From NCBI RefSeq assembly GCF_019312595.1, contig NZ_JAHWDQ010000001.1, forward strand, positions 620,001 through 684,000: a stretch of 64,000 nucleotides of DNA. Direction: 5' to 3'. The translations under genes and the position numbers were made by a program. Positions 7,763 to 37,737 of the stretch are shown in pieces (position 1 is the stretch's first letter; each line of letters starts with the position of its first letter). The stretch comes from Zhongshania aquimaris. Lineage in GTDB: Bacteria > Pseudomonadota > Gammaproteobacteria > Pseudomonadales > Spongiibacteraceae. Under the pieces are notes generated by a model. That model was given only the letters and a program-made list of their open reading frames with translations, did no database searches and was not told the origin of the DNA.

Positions 7763-8833
7763 TTAAGCACTTTTACGAGCGTAACGAGTAGACAGTGACA
7801 GTAATTTCTCGACTTTCACAGAAAGCTGATCTGCCGACCGTGTTATCCAGAGATAGCTGCACAAAAAACCCAAGTAGATAACAAACGCCACCCACTCAGG
7901 GAGATTACTTTGAACTAGCTTTACCCCAAGTAGAGCAAAAAGCAGGGTACTTAACTGCAACACAAACGCCACACTGTTAGTCGACATACCCGCATCTTTT
8001 AAAATGTGATGCATATGGTCTCTGCCCGCCAATGCAGGAGAGCGCCCTGCTAGTCGCCTACGGACAATTACGCCAGCGGTGTCAAACAAGGGTATACCGA
8101 GTAGATACAGTGCCGTTATTGGATGAATCACACCGCTTTGCGCTAGGTCGATCATTATCCAAACGACGGCGAAACCTAGGGCGCCGCTGCCCGCATCACC
8201 TAGAAAAATTCTCGCTTTACTATTCCAAGGAAAACGTGAATTGAAGAGCATAAAGGCAAAAAGTGACGCCGAAATGACGGCAGTTACCAGCGCCTGAATT
8301 TCCAAGCCAGCCTCAGCAGAGAGAAAACACATGATCAACATCGGAATAAAAACCATACCCGACGCAAGCCCATCGAGACCATCGATAAGGTTGAGTGCAT
8401 TGATGCCGCTTGCGACAGCAAACATGGTTGCACCCAAGCCCATTAGGCCAAGGTAAACTACCCCAAGTCCGAGCAAATCCCCCAAAGACGACAGCACATT
8501 ACCAGCGACGAGAGCCATCATTAAGCCAGCCAGCATATGAGCGATGAAGCGAACCCGATAGTCTATGCCGAAACGATCGTCAAACAGCCCCAGCGCGACA
8601 ACTACAGAGCTGATTATGGGTAGCCAGAAATAAGACGAGTCCCAGAATGAAGGAACCAGCAACAATGCCAACATACCAATTTGAATGGCCAGCCCGCCAA
8701 CAAGAGGAGTCGGTTTAGTATGCTGCTTACGCCCGCCGGGATGATCTAACAAGCCGATAAGCGGGGCAAATTTGATAAGTAAAAACAACGAACCAAAACA
8801 CAGCGAGAACGCGACGAGTACAATCTCAGTCAT
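7763..8833 (-). CDS. wecA: WecA-type undecaprenyl-phosphate sugar-1-phosphate transferase
   Basis: This integral membrane enzyme of the MraY/WecA family would start the repeat unit by moving a HexNAc-1-phosphate (probably GlcNAc-1-P) from its UDP-sugar onto undecaprenyl phosphate at the inner face of the membrane. The 356-residue protein has about eleven membrane segments. The family motifs are all present: GLFDDRFGID near residue 86, NLIDGLDGLA near 153, IFLGDAGSG near 213 and GRDHMHHIL near 275. It is the last gene of the minus-strand polysaccharide locus, 150 bp after the Wzb-like gene. Transfer of GlcNAc rather than another HexNAc is inferred. A degenerate copy of its last 60 bp occurs at 381-443. 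Confidence 0.9.
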   Translation of the reverse strand: MTEIVLVAFSLCFGSLFLLIKFAPLIGLLDHPGGRKQHTKPTPLVGGLAIQIGMLALLLVPSFWDSSYFWLPIISSVVVALGLFDDRFGIDYRVRFIAHMLAGLMMALVAGNVLSSLGDLLGLGVVYLGLMGLGATMFAVASGINALNLIDGLDGLASGMVFIPMLIMCFLSAEAGLEIQALVTAVISASLFAFMLFNSRFPWNSKARIFLGDAGSGALGFAVVWIMIDLAQSGVIHPITALYLLGIPLFDTAGVIVRRRLAGRSPALAGRDHMHHILKDAGMSTNSVAFVLQLSTLLFALLGVKLVQSNLPEWVAFVIYLGFLCSYLWITRSADQLSVKVEKLLSLSTRYARKSA

Positions 8834-15672: not shown

Positions 15673-16344
15673 CTATGATGGGCTAGCTGGAGGATCAGGA
15701 AATATAAGATCCAGAATAAAATCAATTAACCCCTGTCCACCGGAAGGCTCGCCTGGATTCCCTGGATTATCTGGATTACCTGGATTCCCTGGATTCCCCG
15801 GATTCCCCGGATTCCCCGGATTCCCCGGATTCCCCGGATTCCCCGGATTCCCCGGATTCCCCGGATTCCCCGGATTCCCCGGATTAGACCCGTTATTCTC
15901 AGATATACGGGCATTGCTATTCAAAACACCAGGCTCTTTAGTCGCGCTACCAATACTAACTTTGAACCGTTTATCTATTCGGCTTAATTGTGTAAGTACA
16001 GATTGGAAGTACGCTGATTCTTTCGAATTGTTTGCCATCGTAGACTGCGAATTTCCAATTATCACATCCACAACTTCAGCAGTGTAGAAGTCAAAAAGGC
16101 CTTGCAGAAACTCAGGCAATAGAGGAGATTCTCGCTTTACGAGCTCAACTATTATAATTTCGCTATTAGTCGCAGACGCCCCGCCTAGTTCGAGCAAACT
16201 TTCAACACGGGTCGTATTTTGCTCGTCAGCAAGTATAGATGCCAGCTCTGCCCTAGTCTGCTCGGAGTCATCAGACGCAGCCAGAGAAACAGAAGCGCCT
16301 CCGAAAACAAGTAGGATTGATGCCAAATAAAGTCTAATTTTCAT
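15673..16344 (-). CDS. Secreted protein with Asn-Pro-Gly tandem repeats
   Basis: A protein of about 223 residues with a Sec signal peptide ([19 protein letters not shown]), a helical middle part of about 120 residues without known motif, and then a stretch of about fifteen tripeptides, mostly Asn-Pro-Gly. It ends in a short hydrophobic and proline-rich tail ([18 protein letters not shown]). The repeats would form an extended, flexible linker or collagen-like rod. It is the first gene of the downstream, assembly half of the polysaccharide locus, directly before the beta-barrel gene, so it may act at the cell surface in polymer secretion or anchoring. The family is not recognised. ATG at 16344 is used; a GTG lies two codons upstream. 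Confidence 0.7.
15752..15886 (-). repeat. 9-bp tandem repeat, about 15 copies, coding for Asn-Pro-Gly
   Basis: Fifteen consecutive 9-bp units lie inside the preceding gene. Read on the plus strand most are GGATTCCCC, with about ten near-identical units in the centre and diverged ones (GGATTACCT, GGATTATCT) at the 15752 end. Because the unit is a multiple of three, copy-number change would lengthen or shorten the protein without frameshift. The sequence homogeneity suggests recent expansion by slippage. Confidence 0.95.
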
Positions 16345-16575
16345 AAGCACGCCACATTTCGTTATTTATTCATTATTTTCGAGTGTCGCTATCAGCCAAG
16401 AGCTTTCTTATTACTGACTACGACTTAAATTTACACGTAATTGAAATTAAGTGCAATTGTATAAACAGGAACATTAGATGGCACTTTGAAGGCATTTTCG
16501 TGATTTTTCGCCGCTTTTATCACTCTAATTTCGCTATGATCGCAGAAACGTATGTGTCATTGGCATAAAAACGAC

Positions 16576-30632: not shown

Positions 30633-32528
30633 TTACATTTCAGCTATTTTTTTGCCAATTTTTGAAGAAAGCTTACGTCCGATAAAGATCGCTCCTTCCT
30701 CTGTTAAGTGCGCGTAATCCCAAGACAGCGGGACGCGCTTATTTGATATATCCGAAAACGCTAGACAACTGCCAGCTTCGCAAAGTAGATCTATCAAGGA
30801 ATAAAACTCGACATCACTTCGCCTAGCCGCGTCTGCAACCTTCGATTCAGCATCTAGCAACTCCGGCATGAGTGTAACCTCTTGCCACTCATCAATCGAC
30901 GAAAGATCAACACCCTCTGCACGCATTTTCCTAGCAATGCTGTGCGGAAGGTCTGGCCTCCACCAAGGCAGAGGGCCAAGGACGATGACCCGGCGCCCAG
31001 TCGCCTTTATCCTATTAATAGTAACTTCAAGTTTTTCCGGCCAGTTTTCTGCATCCTTATAGCCATACCAACTTGCCATTAATATGACTTTATCTGCAGA
31101 TGATTTTTCTATTAGAGAAAATATCGCGTCGTTATTTGCCCTGCAGCTTGGGTTATACCTAGATATAAGATCGAGAATAGGTGGGCATGCGGCGACAGTA
31201 TATTGCTCTGCAACTTCACCGCCCCAGACTTCGTTCAAACCAGGGAATATTGATGCAGCATGAGAATCACCCCACAACAACCACTCTTTATTATCCTCCG
31301 GAGCACACTCTTCCGGGAACTTACCGATAGGCTGATTTGGCATTAAAAAACATGGATATTCATTTGCCTTATAGTATTTGGCGTAATCCAAAACAGACAG
31401 TTCGGCGTCATTCCAAAGCAGGGTATCTAACTTTCCTGATGTGCCAAGCACCCCCAGCGGTAAAACCACAAATGTTGAGACTAAGGCAGACTGCCAAACT
31501 CGACGCGACGAAATGATCGCCTTATGGCGAAAGGGCGTTTCAATATACTTCCAAGTAAAGTAAGCCAACACACCGGAAACCAAACACATTCCTAAGTACA
31601 ACAATCTATTCGACTCGTCATAGCCGAGTATTCTAGCGCCGGCAAAAAATGGGTTATGCCAAAGATACAAACTGAAAGACATCAAGCCAACAAACACAAG
31701 TGGTTTACTACGCAACACATAGCCCGCGATCGTGTTACCGCCGCCATACATAATGATCAAGAACGTTCCTACTGAAGGTAACAAAGCATTATATGATGGG
31801 TAAAGCATGCTGCGATCAAGGAAAAAGACTGCGCCACAAATCATCATTAGGCCGATAAAAGAGAGCAAATTATTTTCGTTGGACTCCCCTCCTTTGGAGT
31901 AAAGCAATACCGCGGCTATCGCACCAATAAACAATTGCCAAGCCCTAGTAGGCGCAAAATAGAAGTTAGCCTTTGGATACAGTGGCCCAGCCCATATGGA
32001 AAAAAAGAAGGCCAATATCGTTATAACGACGACAATCTTCAACATATGTTGTCTGAAATACTTAAAAGCCACGTACAGTGCTAACGGGTAAAAAATATAG
32101 AACTGCTCTTCAACTGCAAGACTCCAAGTATGCAGCAAAGGCATTTGCTCAACGGCCACACCAAAGTAGCTACCTTGATTAAAGTAGAAAATATTAGATA
32201 CAAAGAAGACCACCGACAGAAGGCTTTTAGAATACTCCTCCATTTGCTCAGGCGTCAGGATCAGCGCAAGACCAAAGCTACTCAAAAATAGTATAGTATA
32301 CAGCGCGGGCAATATTCGTCTTACCCGGCGTTCATAGAAGTTAACCAATGAAAATCTGCCGTCTTCCTGTTCGCGAAGCAGAATAGTAGTTATCAAAAAC
32401 CCGCTGATTGCGAAAAAAAGATCAACGCCGACAAAACCACCAGAAAACCCTGGGGTATGGGAGTGGAAAAGTAGTGCCAATAGTACCGCTACGCCGCGCA
32501 ATCCATCCAAATCTTTACGATAAATCAT
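30633..32528 (-). CDS. Acyltransferase 3 with C-terminal SGNH domain (OafA-like)
   Basis: A 631-residue membrane O-acetyltransferase. The N-terminal half (about residues 1-350) is the ten-helix acyltransferase-3 domain with YRKDLDGLRGVAVLLALLFH, FSGGFVGVDLFFAISGFLIT, FYERRVRRILPALY and HTWSLAVEEQFYIFYPL. The C-terminal half is a periplasmic SGNH-type domain with LLWGDSHAASIFPGL (block I) near residue 418 and WDYAHLTEEGA (the D..H dyad) near the end. Such fused proteins acetylate O-antigen or capsule sugars. ATG start; separated by about 110 bases from the Fcl-like gene. Confidence 0.92.
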   Translation of the reverse strand: MIYRKDLDGLRGVAVLLALLFHSHTPGFSGGFVGVDLFFAISGFLITTILLREQEDGRFSLVNFYERRVRRILPALYTILFLSSFGLALILTPEQMEEYSKSLLSVVFFVSNIFYFNQGSYFGVAVEQMPLLHTWSLAVEEQFYIFYPLALYVAFKYFRQHMLKIVVVITILAFFFSIWAGPLYPKANFYFAPTRAWQLFIGAIAAVLLYSKGGESNENNLLSFIGLMMICGAVFFLDRSMLYPSYNALLPSVGTFLIIMYGGGNTIAGYVLRSKPLVFVGLMSFSLYLWHNPFFAGARILGYDESNRLLYLGMCLVSGVLAYFTWKYIETPFRHKAIISSRRVWQSALVSTFVVLPLGVLGTSGKLDTLLWNDAELSVLDYAKYYKANEYPCFLMPNQPIGKFPEECAPEDNKEWLLWGDSHAASIFPGLNEVWGGEVAEQYTVAACPPILDLISRYNPSCRANNDAIFSLIEKSSADKVILMASWYGYKDAENWPEKLEVTINRIKATGRRVIVLGPLPWWRPDLPHSIARKMRAEGVDLSSIDEWQEVTLMPELLDAESKVADAARRSDVEFYSLIDLLCEAGSCLAFSDISNKRVPLSWDYAHLTEEGAIFIGRKLSSKIGKKIAEM

Positions 32529-32642
32529 AGTTATTTTCAGGCCAATATTATTAATTTATTATTCTTGACTCAGGGCGACAGCATAACGGTGTTGTAACAA
32601 CAATGCTTGCCGCTTCGCATTTTCGTAATCACTTTCGATCAT

Positions 32643-33383
32643 TTACGCGCATAATTGCTGGGCTCCTGGGACGTACAACCAAGCTAAACTCTTACGTACT
32701 TTTGTCGGATCGCAATGCAACGATACAACTTCAGCCGATCTAAAATACTCAGCGCCGGATGACTCAACTAGCCCAACCTCGTCAAAACATGTGTAAGCAG
32801 CCCCAGATAGCCCGCGAGCCAAGACGGGAATGGCACGAGCATTCTCAATGTGATAATTGTCTCCCGCACCATATAAATTGTATGGCATTACGCGCCGATA
32901 ATCTAAGCCGTGACTATCGCCGTGCTGTTGCGTGTAGCTCTCACAAAGTTTTATACCTGCAATTTTCGCAACGGCATACGCTTCATTAGTACTCTCTAGC
33001 GGCCCGCCTAATAACGAAGACTCCAAAATTGGCTGGGTTGTTATTCTGGGATAAATGCAGCTAGAGCCAAGAAAAAGTAATTTCTGTACGCCGGATTGAA
33101 ATGCCGAATGAATGACGTTAGTTTCGATCATCAGGTTTTGATAGATAAAATCAGCTGGATAATGACTATTCGCGAATATTCCTCCGACTTTTGCTGCGGC
33201 CATATAGACTTGAGAAATATTGTTTTCAGCAAAAAAAGAGTGCACGGCAACCTGATCGCATAAATCGAGCTGCGATTTATCCTTCGTAAGGATGTCTTTT
33301 TCTGCTACGCCCGTCGCAAGTAGCTCACGAACAATCGCCGACCCAACCATTCCTGCATGGCCAGCAACATAAACCGTATTCAT
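32643..33383 (-). pseudogene. Chimeric remnant: GDP-L-fucose synthase head with GDP-mannose dehydratase tail
   Basis: Residues 1 to about 190 of this 246-residue frame are a good GDP-L-fucose synthase (Fcl). The NADP motif [38 protein letters not shown] (catalytic Ser) and [15 protein letters not shown] (Tyr, Lys) are all present. After IPVLARGL the Fcl sequence, including the WGSG.P.REFLHVDD region, is missing. The last 47 residues (32646-32786) instead match the C-terminus of GDP-mannose 4,6-dehydratase (Gmd): [32 protein letters not shown]. Normal Fcl has about 310-320 aa, so the substrate domain is lost. The protein is unlikely to make GDP-fucose. ATG at 33383 follows AGGTGA. It is the first frame of the polysaccharide operon. 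Confidence 0.8.
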
Positions 33384-33691
33384 TATTATTATCACCTATT
33401 CCAAGGCACCAACTGGAATAAGAGCCTTAAATCGTCCCCAAAATACCTTACTTCTCTTGCATTAATGCGACGAGGAGATAATTCTGCGGGCTTGATATGC
33501 GGCGCTCAATGCAATTTGCCACGTCTTGGATCTATTCTAACGACCGTACCAGAGCTCAGCACGTAGAAACTACCTCTAATACACAAATAAATCAATATTG
33601 AGTCCTTGCGCAATGATATTAACTCCGCAGCTGATAGTTAGCGCTTTCGTCGCATAACTCATATCGCCATGTAAATCTAAAGTAATTACAC
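33384..33691 (-). other. Leader region upstream of the polysaccharide operon
   Basis: About 300 bases without a gene between the helicase gene and the first frame of the minus-strand polysaccharide locus. It should hold the operon promoter; AT-rich segments such as TATTGATTTATTTGTGTATTAG around 33575-33600 on the minus strand are candidates, but no clear -35/-10 pair stands out. A JUMPstart-like core lies at 33547-33555. Confidence 0.4.
33547..33560 (-). promoter_or_regulatory. JUMPstart-like element, ops part not evident
   Basis: On the minus strand the bases GCTGAGCTCTGGTA include the nine-base core GCTCTGGTA of the JUMPstart consensus found in leaders of RfaH-controlled polysaccharide operons. 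It lies about 165 bases before the first ATG, the expected place. The downstream ops octamer GGCGGTAG is not seen in its usual position, so RfaH control is uncertain and a chance match is possible. Confidence 0.3.
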
Positions 33692-35977
33692 TTAAATACC
33701 CCACCACGTAGGTAGAAGTGATCGCACTTTTTTCCAAGCATAGCGGGCGTCAATAAGCTCGATAACGCCACGATCTTCAGGTGTCCGAATCAAGCGCCCC
33801 GCCGCTTGTATTACCTTTTGCAAGCCTGGGTATATATAAGTGTAGTCATAGCCCCTACCGTAGCGCGCTTCTAGGCGCTCCCTTAGTACCTCATGAAATT
33901 CATCGTGTGGCGCTAATCCGAGTGTCGCGACAAATACCCCAATCAGTTTATCGCCGGGTAAGTCGATACCTTCACCGAACACGCCGCCCAGCACCGCAAA
34001 AGCGACACTTGGCGCGGTATCACTAATATCACTTATAAATTGTTCACGCTCAAATGGCGGCATGCCTGGAGTCTGGCGCAGTAGTCGCAGCGCCGGCGCC
34101 AACGTCCCCAACCGTTTATAGACAGTATTGAGGTAATCAAAGCTGCTTAAATACACCAAGTAATTACCGGGCTTTGCCTTATATTGCGCAATAATACGCG
34201 CGCAAATTGGCACCAATGAGTCTTCGCGATCGTGGTGCCTGGTACTAATGGTTGTTACCAGTCGTAAGTCGATTTGCTCTTTCGCAAATGGGCTTTCAAT
34301 GTCAATAAAGTTAGTGGTCTGCGGCAAGCCCAAAAGATCTTGGTGGTAGCCCGCAGGTGACAGGGTCGCAGAAAACAGAATCGTACTTACGGCATCGATG
34401 AAACGCTGTGCGAGATGGTCGGCTGGTATCAGGTTGTCGATGAGTAGTTTTGCGCTGCCCGGCTTTGCTCGCACACTGCCAGCAAAGGTTTCAAACTCCA
34501 AGGTACACAGGGAATGCTCATCAAATTTATCTGCAAGCCGCAAGAATCCCAGTGCCGTAAACAGTACATTCTGTACTTCTGCGGCAGCAGGGTTGTCGGT
34601 GAGGTAATCTGTAATTGCTGAAATTAGGCCGTAAAGCGCCGTATTTAAATCCTCCGGCACGGACTTTAAGTAGTAGCGACGTTGCTCAATATCTTCATCG
34701 CTATCCAGGAAGGGGCGAATCATTGACGCCCAAGCGATTTCAAGTTCAGACATGGGTTTGAGTAGTGGGGCCGGCACTTTGCGTATGCCATAGAGCATTT
34801 CCGCTTCACCCAAGGCAATGCTATACATCCCTCGTGCGCGATCAATTAGATTATGCGCTTCGTCGACTAGCGGCATTACCCGCCACTCATTGGCGATGGT
34901 TAGGCTGTATAGCAGTGCAAACTGGTCGTAGTAATGGTTGACGTCAGCCACGACCACATCGCACCAGCGCGCCATTTCCTGCGCGAGGAAATAACGGCAC
35001 ACATTGTGTTCGCCGGCGATGCGGCGAAGTGTGCTTTGAGTTAAAAACCCCTCTTCGACTGCCTGCTGTCGGGCAGCAGGTAAACGGTCAAAAAAGCCCT
35101 TCGCTAGTGGGCAGGAGTCACCATGACATGCCTTATCCGGGTTGTCGCATGCTGCCTCTCTCGATGACAGCTCAAGCACTCGCAGCGGTAAGCTCAAAGA
35201 TTGCGAATCTAGAATTATTCGCAAGCCATCCAGCCCTAATTTGCGCCCCGTATTGCGATTGGTCAGGAAGAATACGCGATCCAACTCCACCTCAGGCATC
35301 GCCCGTAAGGCGGGAAACAACACCCCCACGGTTTTGCCAATGCCCGTTGGCGCTTGCAGTAATAGCGGCACAGCGTTCTTGGCAGACAGGTATACCACTT
35401 TCGCCAGTGAATGTTGGCCCGCTCTAAATTCTGGATGAGGAAAGCTCAGCGCAAGTAGGGCATTGTCTCGAGCTTCTCGATGCGCAGTCTCCTGCTTCGC
35501 CCAACTTATATAACACCGACAAAGCTCTTCTAAATAATCCTCTAATTCAGTCGCCTCAAACGTAATATCTTCAGTGGTTTCCAGCTCATCGCGCACTTCG
35601 AAATAGGTCAGTCGCAATGCGATACTGTCTCGCTTATCGCGTTGACAAAGCAGCGCACCATAGACTTTGAGCTGCGCCCAATGCAAATCGCGACGACCCG
35701 GGCCAATACGGTTTACATTACCGCGATGGGTTTTGATTTCCTCTAAAAAGCACTCTTGTTGATTGGCATAATAGCCATCTACGCGACCGCTCACTTCCAA
35801 GCCGGCGCATTGCCCCTTGAGCGCATATTCGGCGACGTAGGGGTCGGGGCGGCGCTGCTGCACCGCAACATGCCCCATCATGCCCTCTTCAGACGTCGGC
35901 GCGGGGGTATAACGAAACTCTAAACTTCCGGTGCGAGCAGCGAACTCGCACAGCGACCTAACTGACACTCGCATCAT
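33692..35977 (-). CDS. PD-(D/E)XK nuclease-like / XPD-DinG type DNA helicase
   Basis: A superfamily 2 helicase of the Rad3/XPD/DinG group, with an extra N-terminal nuclease-like part. Residues about 1-190 contain GRVDGYY ... CFLEEIKTHRG, the D ... ExK pattern of PD-(D/E)XK (Cas4/RecB-like) domains. The helicase has Walker A LLQAPTGIGKT near 211 and DEAH box PLVDEAHNLIDRARGMYS near 372. Four cysteines (ACDNPDKACHGDSC and NVCRYF) are suited to an FeS cluster as in XPD. C-terminal motifs include ILFSATLSP, SFDYLNTVYKRL, GVFGEGIDLPG and QAAGRLIRTPEDRG (motif VI). ATG at 35977 overlaps the FAN1-like gene by 4 nt (ATGA). The pair suggests a joint DNA repair role. Confidence 0.88.
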   Translation of the reverse strand: MMRVSVRSLCEFAARTGSLEFRYTPAPTSEEGMMGHVAVQQRRPDPYVAEYALKGQCAGLEVSGRVDGYYANQQECFLEEIKTHRGNVNRIGPGRRDLHWAQLKVYGALLCQRDKRDSIALRLTYFEVRDELETTEDITFEATELEDYLEELCRCYISWAKQETAHREARDNALLALSFPHPEFRAGQHSLAKVVYLSAKNAVPLLLQAPTGIGKTVGVLFPALRAMPEVELDRVFFLTNRNTGRKLGLDGLRIILDSQSLSLPLRVLELSSREAACDNPDKACHGDSCPLAKGFFDRLPAARQQAVEEGFLTQSTLRRIAGEHNVCRYFLAQEMARWCDVVVADVNHYYDQFALLYSLTIANEWRVMPLVDEAHNLIDRARGMYSIALGEAEMLYGIRKVPAPLLKPMSELEIAWASMIRPFLDSDEDIEQRRYYLKSVPEDLNTALYGLISAITDYLTDNPAAAEVQNVLFTALGFLRLADKFDEHSLCTLEFETFAGSVRAKPGSAKLLIDNLIPADHLAQRFIDAVSTILFSATLSPAGYHQDLLGLPQTTNFIDIESPFAKEQIDLRLVTTISTRHHDREDSLVPICARIIAQYKAKPGNYLVYLSSFDYLNTVYKRLGTLAPALRLLRQTPGMPPFEREQFISDISDTAPSVAFAVLGGVFGEGIDLPGDKLIGVFVATLGLAPHDEFHEVLRERLEARYGRGYDYTYIYPGLQKVIQAAGRLIRTPEDRGVIELIDARYAWKKVRSLLPTWWGI

Positions 35978-37737
35978 GGCGCGTCTTCCCAACGTATTTC
36001 TGCCACGGAAACTGGCAAACCCGCTGCAAGCATAGTCTCTATCCAAAGCCGCTGGTGATCTTGTAAACGATCCCCCGGGCCTTTGACCTCTACAAGTTGA
36101 TACGTATGTTGATTTAGATTAAACACGATTAAATCAGGCATGCCGCGGCGGTGGTTACGCAAATCACTTAGCAAATGGCGAAACACCAGCTCAAGGTGTT
36201 CAGCGGGAATATAGGTTAGCGCGTGCTCCAATAAAGATCTCGGCAATGACGGCCAATGTATCAGTGTGCAAGCAATGCCCTGCTTCGCATCCCAACACGC
36301 CAGCATAGCGGAGCGATACTCACCGGTCTCAAGGAGGCTTAATCTCGCATCAATTTCTCGCTGTCGTAGCACTGCAAAATCAGACCGAAACAGATCCGCA
36401 GGCCCCGCTTGGAAGGGATGAAAGAACGCACCAGGAAGCGGCGCATAAAGTACGGGCCACATCAATAAAGCAAAGAGACCCGTAAACAAGGTGTTTTCAC
36501 AATACGCGCCAACAACACCCGCCTCTTTTGCAAACTCATTTAATGTCGCCAGCTCCACACGGTCTTCGCCTTTCACCAATTGAAAATGATGAGTGGGGAT
36601 TATTGATTTAACTGGAGCGGCAGTTGCCAACTTGATCTTACGTCGCAGCCGGTGGGCAATGCGAGAAAGGTGTAGCCGTGGCTCAGGGCGACGAATGTTT
36701 AATAGGGTGTTTTCTAGCTGTACGAGCATCACTTCGATATCGTTGCGGGTCTTTTCCTGCAAGCGATATAAACGCACTTGAGCTTCATCCAGAGAATTGT
36801 TCGAATAAATGTGTATTGCCAATTCCAGATCGCCCATTCGCTCGGTCTGCTGTGCGAGTTGAAACATCATGCGTTGGCGCCGGTGCTCAAGCCACGGGTT
36901 ATCTAACTGATTGGGACAGTCACGCAAAATATCGGCGACCGGTTCTTCTTCAAAAAGCCTCACCTGACATTGGTGAATCGCAATATAGTCATCCAACTCC
37001 CGCCGTGATTTAAAAGCGCGGGACTGCGAACTAAACTCGACCGACTCATAGCGCTGATGTCCGAGCTCAGCAAGAACAAACTCCGACCAGTCTTGATACA
37101 GATTTCCAAAGAACATCAGCCGCACCCGCTCCAAGAGTGCACCGTTTCTCAAGCCGACAATGTGTATTGCACTATCTGACCACCAGTCACGAAGAATACG
37201 AGGCCCCCGCTCCTCGCCTAACTCCAGAAGCGGATCAAGTAATTCGGACTTGCGAATATTTTTTGCAAAACCATACCCAGCATCGGACAGCAAAGTGTGC
37301 AACTCCGCGCGACGACACAATCTATACAATTCAGGGGCATCAAGGTTAGGCTCTAGATCCACCCAGTCAGATTGCGCAAGCTCGTGCAATGCGTCGTCGA
37401 TCGAGGGGATTTCATCGTAAGCCAAGGTATCACGGCGGAACAACTCGCCCTTGCGCATAACTAGACGGGTAACTATTGCTTGCCCTGCTTCCGATTGATT
37501 CAACAACTGCACTAGTAGCGCCCGCTCATCGTGCAAGAGTAAATCCGCGTGATGAGCTAAAACCCAGCGAATCACCGTTTGAAAGTTTTCTAAATAATAG
37601 AGCGGATTGCTAAGTGATGCGCTTTGCAAGGCGGGCACCGCTGTCGAAGCTATTGCTATGCTATTTTCCTCATCACTATTGGGTGCACACATTAATTGGC
37701 TAGCCAAACGTTTAGCTTCTCTTGGATTATCGTCCAC
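35974..37737 (-). CDS. FAN1-like VRR-NUC structure-specific nuclease
   Basis: A 587-residue bacterial relative of the Fanconi-associated nuclease FAN1, which cuts flapped and cross-linked DNA. The N-terminal region has YYLENFQTVIRWVLAHHADLL and FRRDTLAYDEIPS, followed by a SAP-like and a helical TPR-like middle (WLEHRRQRMMFQLAQQTERM ... AIHIYSNNSLDEAQVRLYRL). The C-terminal VRR-NUC domain shows HRRGMPDLIVFN near residue 532 and YQLVEVKGPGDRLQDHQRLW near 549, giving the PD..ExK..Q catalytic pattern. GTG start. The downstream helicase gene overlaps its stop codon by 4 nt, so nuclease and helicase are co-translated. Length fits bacterial FAN1. Confidence 0.9.
   Translation of the reverse strand: MDDNPREAKRLASQLMCAPNSDEENSIAIASTAVPALQSASLSNPLYYLENFQTVIRWVLAHHADLLLHDERALLVQLLNQSEAGQAIVTRLVMRKGELFRRDTLAYDEIPSIDDALHELAQSDWVDLEPNLDAPELYRLCRRAELHTLLSDAGYGFAKNIRKSELLDPLLELGEERGPRILRDWWSDSAIHIVGLRNGALLERVRLMFFGNLYQDWSEFVLAELGHQRYESVEFSSQSRAFKSRRELDDYIAIHQCQVRLFEEEPVADILRDCPNQLDNPWLEHRRQRMMFQLAQQTERMGDLELAIHIYSNNSLDEAQVRLYRLQEKTRNDIEVMLVQLENTLLNIRRPEPRLHLSRIAHRLRRKIKLATAAPVKSIIPTHHFQLVKGEDRVELATLNEFAKEAGVVGAYCENTLFTGLFALLMWPVLYAPLPGAFFHPFQAGPADLFRSDFAVLRQREIDARLSLLETGEYRSAMLACWDAKQGIACTLIHWPSLPRSLLEHALTYIPAEHLELVFRHLLSDLRNHRRGMPDLIVFNLNQHTYQLVEVKGPGDRLQDHQRLWIETMLAAGLPVSVAEIRWEDAP

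Follow-up and report, generated by a model that had tools for sequence, protein, structure and literature searches.

Layout of the locus

The window analysed here, a stretch of 64,000 nucleotides from Zhongshania aquimaris, contains on its minus strand an open reading frame (32643-33395) of 250 codons counted from a GTG at 33395. Translation probably begins at an ATG (33383), which is preceded by AGGTG and gives 246 codons up to an in-frame TAA. PDB and profile matches confirmed, at the level of sequence, the chimeric Fcl-Gmd frame proposed in a preliminary description of this DNA: GDP-L-fucose synthase (Fcl) accounts for it up to about residue 192-198, and the C-terminal end of GDP-mannose 4,6-dehydratase (Gmd) for what follows (Table 1). 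The Gmd reading continues for 27 codons beyond the TAA (32645-32643), up to a stop of its own (32561-32559), and no frameshift was found over the 274 codons. The whole is called the remnant below, in keeping with the reading that we consider probable.

Table 1 Features of the remnant and its flanks (positions in the window)
Feature	Position	Strand	Basis or observation
Acyltransferase gene (SGNH domain); opens the cluster and is the first intact gene downstream of the remnant	30633..32528	-	
Stop where intact Gmd has its C-terminus	32559..32561	-	Gmd alignment
Gmd C-terminal end, residues 200-274, decayed; same frame as the Fcl part	32562..32786	-	
In-frame TAA, inside the Gmd part	32643..32645	-	Open-frame reading and genome search
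Junction, residues 193-199	32787..32807	-	Convincing match to neither the Fcl nor the Gmd family
Fcl part, residues 161-192	32808..32903	-	6/15 conserved columns broken, one of them the catalytic His, replaced by Arg183
Fcl part, residues 1-160	32904..33383	-	1/74 conserved columns broken; Ser107, Cys109, Tyr136 and Lys140 present
Gap separating the remnant from the conserved helicase, at the upstream limit of the apparently acquired block	33396..33691		

A polysaccharide cluster lies downstream on the same strand and runs from the acyltransferase gene (30633-32528) to a WecA-like gene (7763-8833). One GT4 gene of the cluster weakly resembles WcaI, a colanic-acid fucosyltransferase (136.5 bits against a cut-off of 276). 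The neighbouring acyltransferase was uninformative as a means of tracing a related cluster, its best other match being 39% over residues 1-493. The cluster also includes a 225-aa frame (15673-16350, minus strand) with GNP triplet repeats (GNPGNPGNP...) near its C-terminal half, which give it a collagen-like look.

Upstream of the remnant, at 33692-37737 on the minus strand, a gene for a DEAD_2-type helicase overlaps one for a FAN1-like VRR-NUC nuclease. In the gap between remnant and helicase (33396-33691) no sigma-70-like site was found on the minus strand; the promoter scan gave two sites, both on the plus strand, against 3.1 in shuffles. Orthologues of the helicase occur in nine of 17 other genomes of the genus, with part of the nuclease beside the helicase in the fetched stretches. 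None of these nine relatives has the polysaccharide cluster within about 16 kb of the helicase, and the sole match to a cluster gene near it is a small phosphatase (26%, at two loci, L111 and L112). The seven cluster genes nearest the remnant have a GC content of 0.385-0.444, compared with 0.497-0.523 for three genes on its other side; two distal cluster genes have values of 0.452 and 0.486. Because the cluster is missing beside the helicase in all nine relatives and its nearest genes are lower in GC, the remnant apparently sits at the edge of an acquired block. The preliminary description had called the site the exchange point of a sugar cassette; its position at such an edge agrees with this, while exchange of a fucose cassette at that point is a further step that these data may suggest.

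The Fcl head

The 246-residue frame matched the NCBIfam model for GDP-L-fucose synthase (NF047922) over residues 3-203 with 277.8 bits (E = 1.3e-82), and E. coli GDP-fucose synthetase (PDB 1bsv) over residues 3-195 (E = 5.2e-69). The resemblance to the enzyme thus covers the NADP part and reaches from residue 1 to about 192. Similarity ends near residue 195-203, so the substrate-binding lobe is incomplete; most of that lobe is gone, and the score falls below the curated cut-off of 500 bits that a whole GDP-L-fucose synthase would reach.

The roles of the Ser/Thr-Tyr-Lys residues and of the Cys in GDP-L-fucose synthase, and that of human His186 as the general acid in epimerisation, are taken from PMC12362431. 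Catalytic-residue numbering and lobe limits in the remnant were mapped by us from the human enzyme (GFS). The reduction residues and the Cys base are unchanged (S107, C109, Y136 and K140), and the preliminary description was right that Ser, Tyr and Lys are intact (Ser107, Tyr136 and Lys140). It overlooked the loss of the catalytic histidine: the conserved residue aligned with E. coli position 179 is Arg183 in the remnant.

The Gmd tail

Within the 246-residue frame the Gmd model TIGR01472 matched weakly (E = 0.076). When the tail beyond the TAA was read with X in place of the stop, it aligned without gaps to chain residues 308-370 of 372 in GDP-mannose 4,6-dehydratase (PDB 1db3; E = 1.4e-7) and reached E = 4.5e-5 with TIGR01472. 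A genome search with TIGR01472 also recovered the place unaided, noting one TAA inside it. Residues 211-274, 27 of them past the TAA, align well to Gmd, and two pieces of the tail each outscore all of 2000 shuffles; a short extra piece at residues 200-208 is reached in score by 8 of 2000. The tail is therefore Gmd, as the preliminary description stated, but longer than the roughly 47 residues it gave, since it runs 27 codons past the TAA. The likeness consists of these last 64 residues, gapless across the in-frame stop; about four fifths of the enzyme is missing, and the 22.8 bits obtained, over the last 45 model positions only, compare with a cut-off of 415 for a whole Gmd. Head and tail were compared with 59 Fcl and 44 Gmd proteins kept after length filters. 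The tail breaks five of 17 near-invariant columns (conserved at 97%), whereas no intact Gmd among the 44 breaks more than two.

Other assignments were tried around the tail. One global alignment pairs it with the Fcl C-terminus, but profile and PDB matches point to Gmd. A further Gmd piece at residues 191-199, hinted at by the Gmd alignment, scored no better than shuffles. The gap before YFR was given no weight, as it measures 17 residues against long-loop Gmd and about five against the short-loop Gmd of genomes G375 and G197. The Gmd proteins of two fcl-gmd loci in these genomes (L129 and L130) have a 13-residue loop before YFRP, compared with 24-26 residues in most others fetched.

Intact pair and relatives

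The preliminary description suggested searching the genome for intact gmd and fcl, and a gmd-fcl pair was found 1.27 Mb away on the same contig. Its Fcl is 63% identical to the remnant head, too distant for the remnant to be a recent duplicate of the genome's own pair. Past local use of GDP-fucose, thought probable in the preliminary description, is at most a possibility here; with an intact pair elsewhere, redundancy could explain the local loss.

The best identities found were about 66% for the head and about 42% for the tail. Gene order, read within each fetched locus only, was gmd-fcl in 56 of 84 rows and fcl-gmd in 11, with no gmd seen beside fcl in 17. In the three best-scoring Fcl matches of the order after self (G217, G375 and G197; 64-65%) fcl precedes gmd, as it does in four of the six best named loci (L037, L038, L039 and L041). 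The named locus with the best E-value (L036) and the two loci with the highest plain identity to the head (L040 and L119) are gmd-fcl. A four-residue insertion just ahead of the DYR motif is present in the head, in six of ten readable fcl-gmd rows and in eight of ten readable rows without a seen gmd, compared with three of 37 readable gmd-fcl rows, the rows not being independent and 27 of the 84 being unreadable. In the tree the head was unplaced within a 50-row group that excludes the genome's own Fcl, and the end branch of the full head was long (1.22 against a median of 0.24). In the G197 cassette fcl overlaps gmd by four bases. The flanks of the nearest fcl-gmd loci gave weak, generic matches to genes of the window. 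Since the closest Fcl relative is just about 66% identical, the ends of any deletion are unreadable.

Search for other copies of the fusion

Across 390 genomes of the order, matches were obtained in 82 genomes at 93 places (counted by hand from the listing), and none of the 92 other places matched beyond query residue 210. Frames of 314-421 aa were present at 91 of them, two with one internal stop; the last, in G103, is a stop-containing piece of 175 aa. All 46 loci in a collection of named genomes have full-length Fcl. No relative of the fusion was found in viral contigs, and among the best five of 78 phage records and the best 25 of 342 plasmid records, 29 of the 30 matches stop at or before residue 211. 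The phage match extending to residue 234 (H2) consists of two intact genes, gmd and then fcl, and apparent long matches at L051, L052 and L053 likewise proved to be neighbouring intact gmd and fcl. A DNA search of 21 genomes of the family gave, besides the remnant's own place, partial matches only (64-75%). No fusion of this kind was described in the literature searched, which comprised titles and abstracts with few subscription papers.

Conserved full-length homologues with the same domain order, which the preliminary description named as the mark of a real protein family, were thus absent from the genomes searched. A conserved new chimeric family was rejected on these counts, no second fusion occurring at the 92 places in 390 genomes and all 46 named loci being full length.

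Other damaged or unusual loci were seen. In an fcl-gmd locus of G252 (L171, contig C29, 14144-15244) fcl is split by a TAG, and G103 has two fcl places with an internal stop (C64:827-1327 and C281:8927-9493), one of these places being an N-terminal piece of just 175 aa. In this order, fcl seems to have been lost repeatedly. An unannotated phage-labelled contig from human faeces (L186; MT836247.1, 5778-10446) carries apparently intact, adjacent gmd and fcl.

Uneven wear along the frame

Conserved Fcl columns were defined as those kept in at least 90% of 81 relatives, the long-branch rows L019, L022 and L080 having been left out of the 84. The remnant breaks one of 74 such columns in residues 1-160 but six of 15 in residues 161-192, where none of the 81 relatives breaks six. 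The best change-point lies before residue 164 (likelihood ratio 18.2); three of 5000 permutations gave one as large, and the highest of 31 control rows was 11.2. At the decay rate of the back half, 22-30 of the 74 columns in the head would be broken. The even decay along the frame expected of a pseudogene was therefore not seen (1/74 against 6/15), and simple neutral decay would not explain the conserved front part. Segments 66-75 and 107-132 belong to the substrate lobe and have none of their 22 conserved columns broken though the lobe is lost, while residues 161-176 have two of ten broken.

The front is not slow-evolving in general. In a tree of residues 1-160 its end branch is the longest (0.49; next 0.44, median 0.14), a length that would suit a divergent but working Fcl. 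Decay begins about 30 residues ahead of the Fcl-Gmd junction, a point that the preliminary description overlooked. Under long neutral decay the chance of no frameshift over 274 codons would be 0.004-0.07 at assumed indel ratios of 0.1-0.05, and 0.34 at a ratio of 0.02, which makes the absence somewhat unlikely.

Predicted structure and activity

AlphaFold2 gave the remnant a mean pLDDT of 70.0. Values of at least 90 were reached by 85 of the 246 residues, which makes the nucleotide-binding part confident in much of the model; residues 206-246 fell below 50 and the tail is predicted to be unstructured. The intact Fcl of the same genome, modelled with the same relatives as alignment, had a mean of 92.2 without any low stretch. 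Judging from sequence and model together, GDP-fucose synthase activity of the product is very unlikely: no GDP-fucose would be expected from a protein that lacks the catalytic His and most of its substrate lobe and retains just the C-terminal end of Gmd.

Origin of the remnant

The locus shows a broken frame (the in-frame TAA), the loss of an essential residue (His) and missing lobes. It is most probably a dead chimeric gene remnant of an fcl-gmd cassette, a known kind of thing. Gene remnants are common at the edges of polysaccharide clusters, and here too partial sugar-nucleotide genes lie beside an apparently acquired block; this case differs in that two genes are fused in frame, with front and back unequally worn. 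We infer a deletion of about 1.2 kb in the cassette, which took away roughly 130 codons from the end of fcl and 280 from the start of gmd and joined what was left of the two genes in frame. Redundancy with the second gmd-fcl pair would be the reason that the loss was tolerated. Fusion by deletion between neighbouring genes, as the preliminary description proposed, is probably correct, the top-scoring relatives in the order carrying fcl before gmd and the four-residue insertion of the head being shared with six of ten readable fcl-gmd rows but three of 37 readable gmd-fcl ones. Against it stand the gmd-fcl loci with the best E-value among named loci (L036) and with the highest plain identity (L040 and L119).

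The order and direction of the two parts suit a simple deletion in a G197-like fcl-gmd cassette, where a single event suffices, and the Gmd part still ends where its own stop stands. An origin by recombination between fcl and gmd genes that were unlinked or foreign is for these reasons unlikely, even though no fetched gene is close to either part (head about 66%, tail about 42%), so that a common cassette origin is only probable. An assembly or sequencing artefact might be suspected for a fusion known from one genome only, but it is highly improbable: the contig surrounding the place measures 1.93 Mb, the genome is listed with 100% completeness and 0.7% contamination, and neither part equals the genome's intact copy (63%).

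The conserved front could also mean that a short protein is alive, its NADP-binding Fcl part under selection and its tail free, for example pairing with intact Fcl in a dimer or serving to bind a ligand or partner. The single broken column among 74 in residues 1-160, the ATG with AGGTG upstream and the confidently modelled nucleotide-binding part (85 of 246 residues with pLDDT of at least 90) fit such a protein, and it is the lack of any frameshift over 274 codons that keeps it in consideration. Selection on the NADP lobe, however, should spare residues 161-176 and relax 66-75 and 107-132, the reverse of the two of ten and none of 22 columns found broken; the modelled tail is unstructured and no homologue of the fusion was found in the genomes searched. 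We regard a live protein of this kind as improbable, and would say the same of a young in-frame fusion that is now a real protein, with a truncated fucose-synthase fold conserved over 160 residues and selected for a role other than making GDP-fucose, for instance pairing with intact Fcl and tuning it.

For the dead remnant, the uneven wear would be accounted for if the frame were a mosaic with parts of two ages. An older fcl'-'gmd piece, already decayed, would have acquired its present 5' end from an fcl still working at the time, through a later exchange or deletion within fcl around codon 160. We hold this with about half confidence, and favour it because of the change-point near residue 164 and because none of the 22 substrate-lobe columns before residue 133 is broken.

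Significance

The picture of the GDP-fucose pathway in this organism is unchanged, as the pathway is intact elsewhere in the genome. What the remnant shows is how a sugar cassette wears away where it borders a polysaccharide cluster, and it can be read as the fossil of fcl and gmd genes from a lineage other than that of the pair which the genus itself carries. Only the unequal wear might come as a surprise to a specialist; running along one frame, it offers a small, testable case of the history of a mosaic pseudogene.
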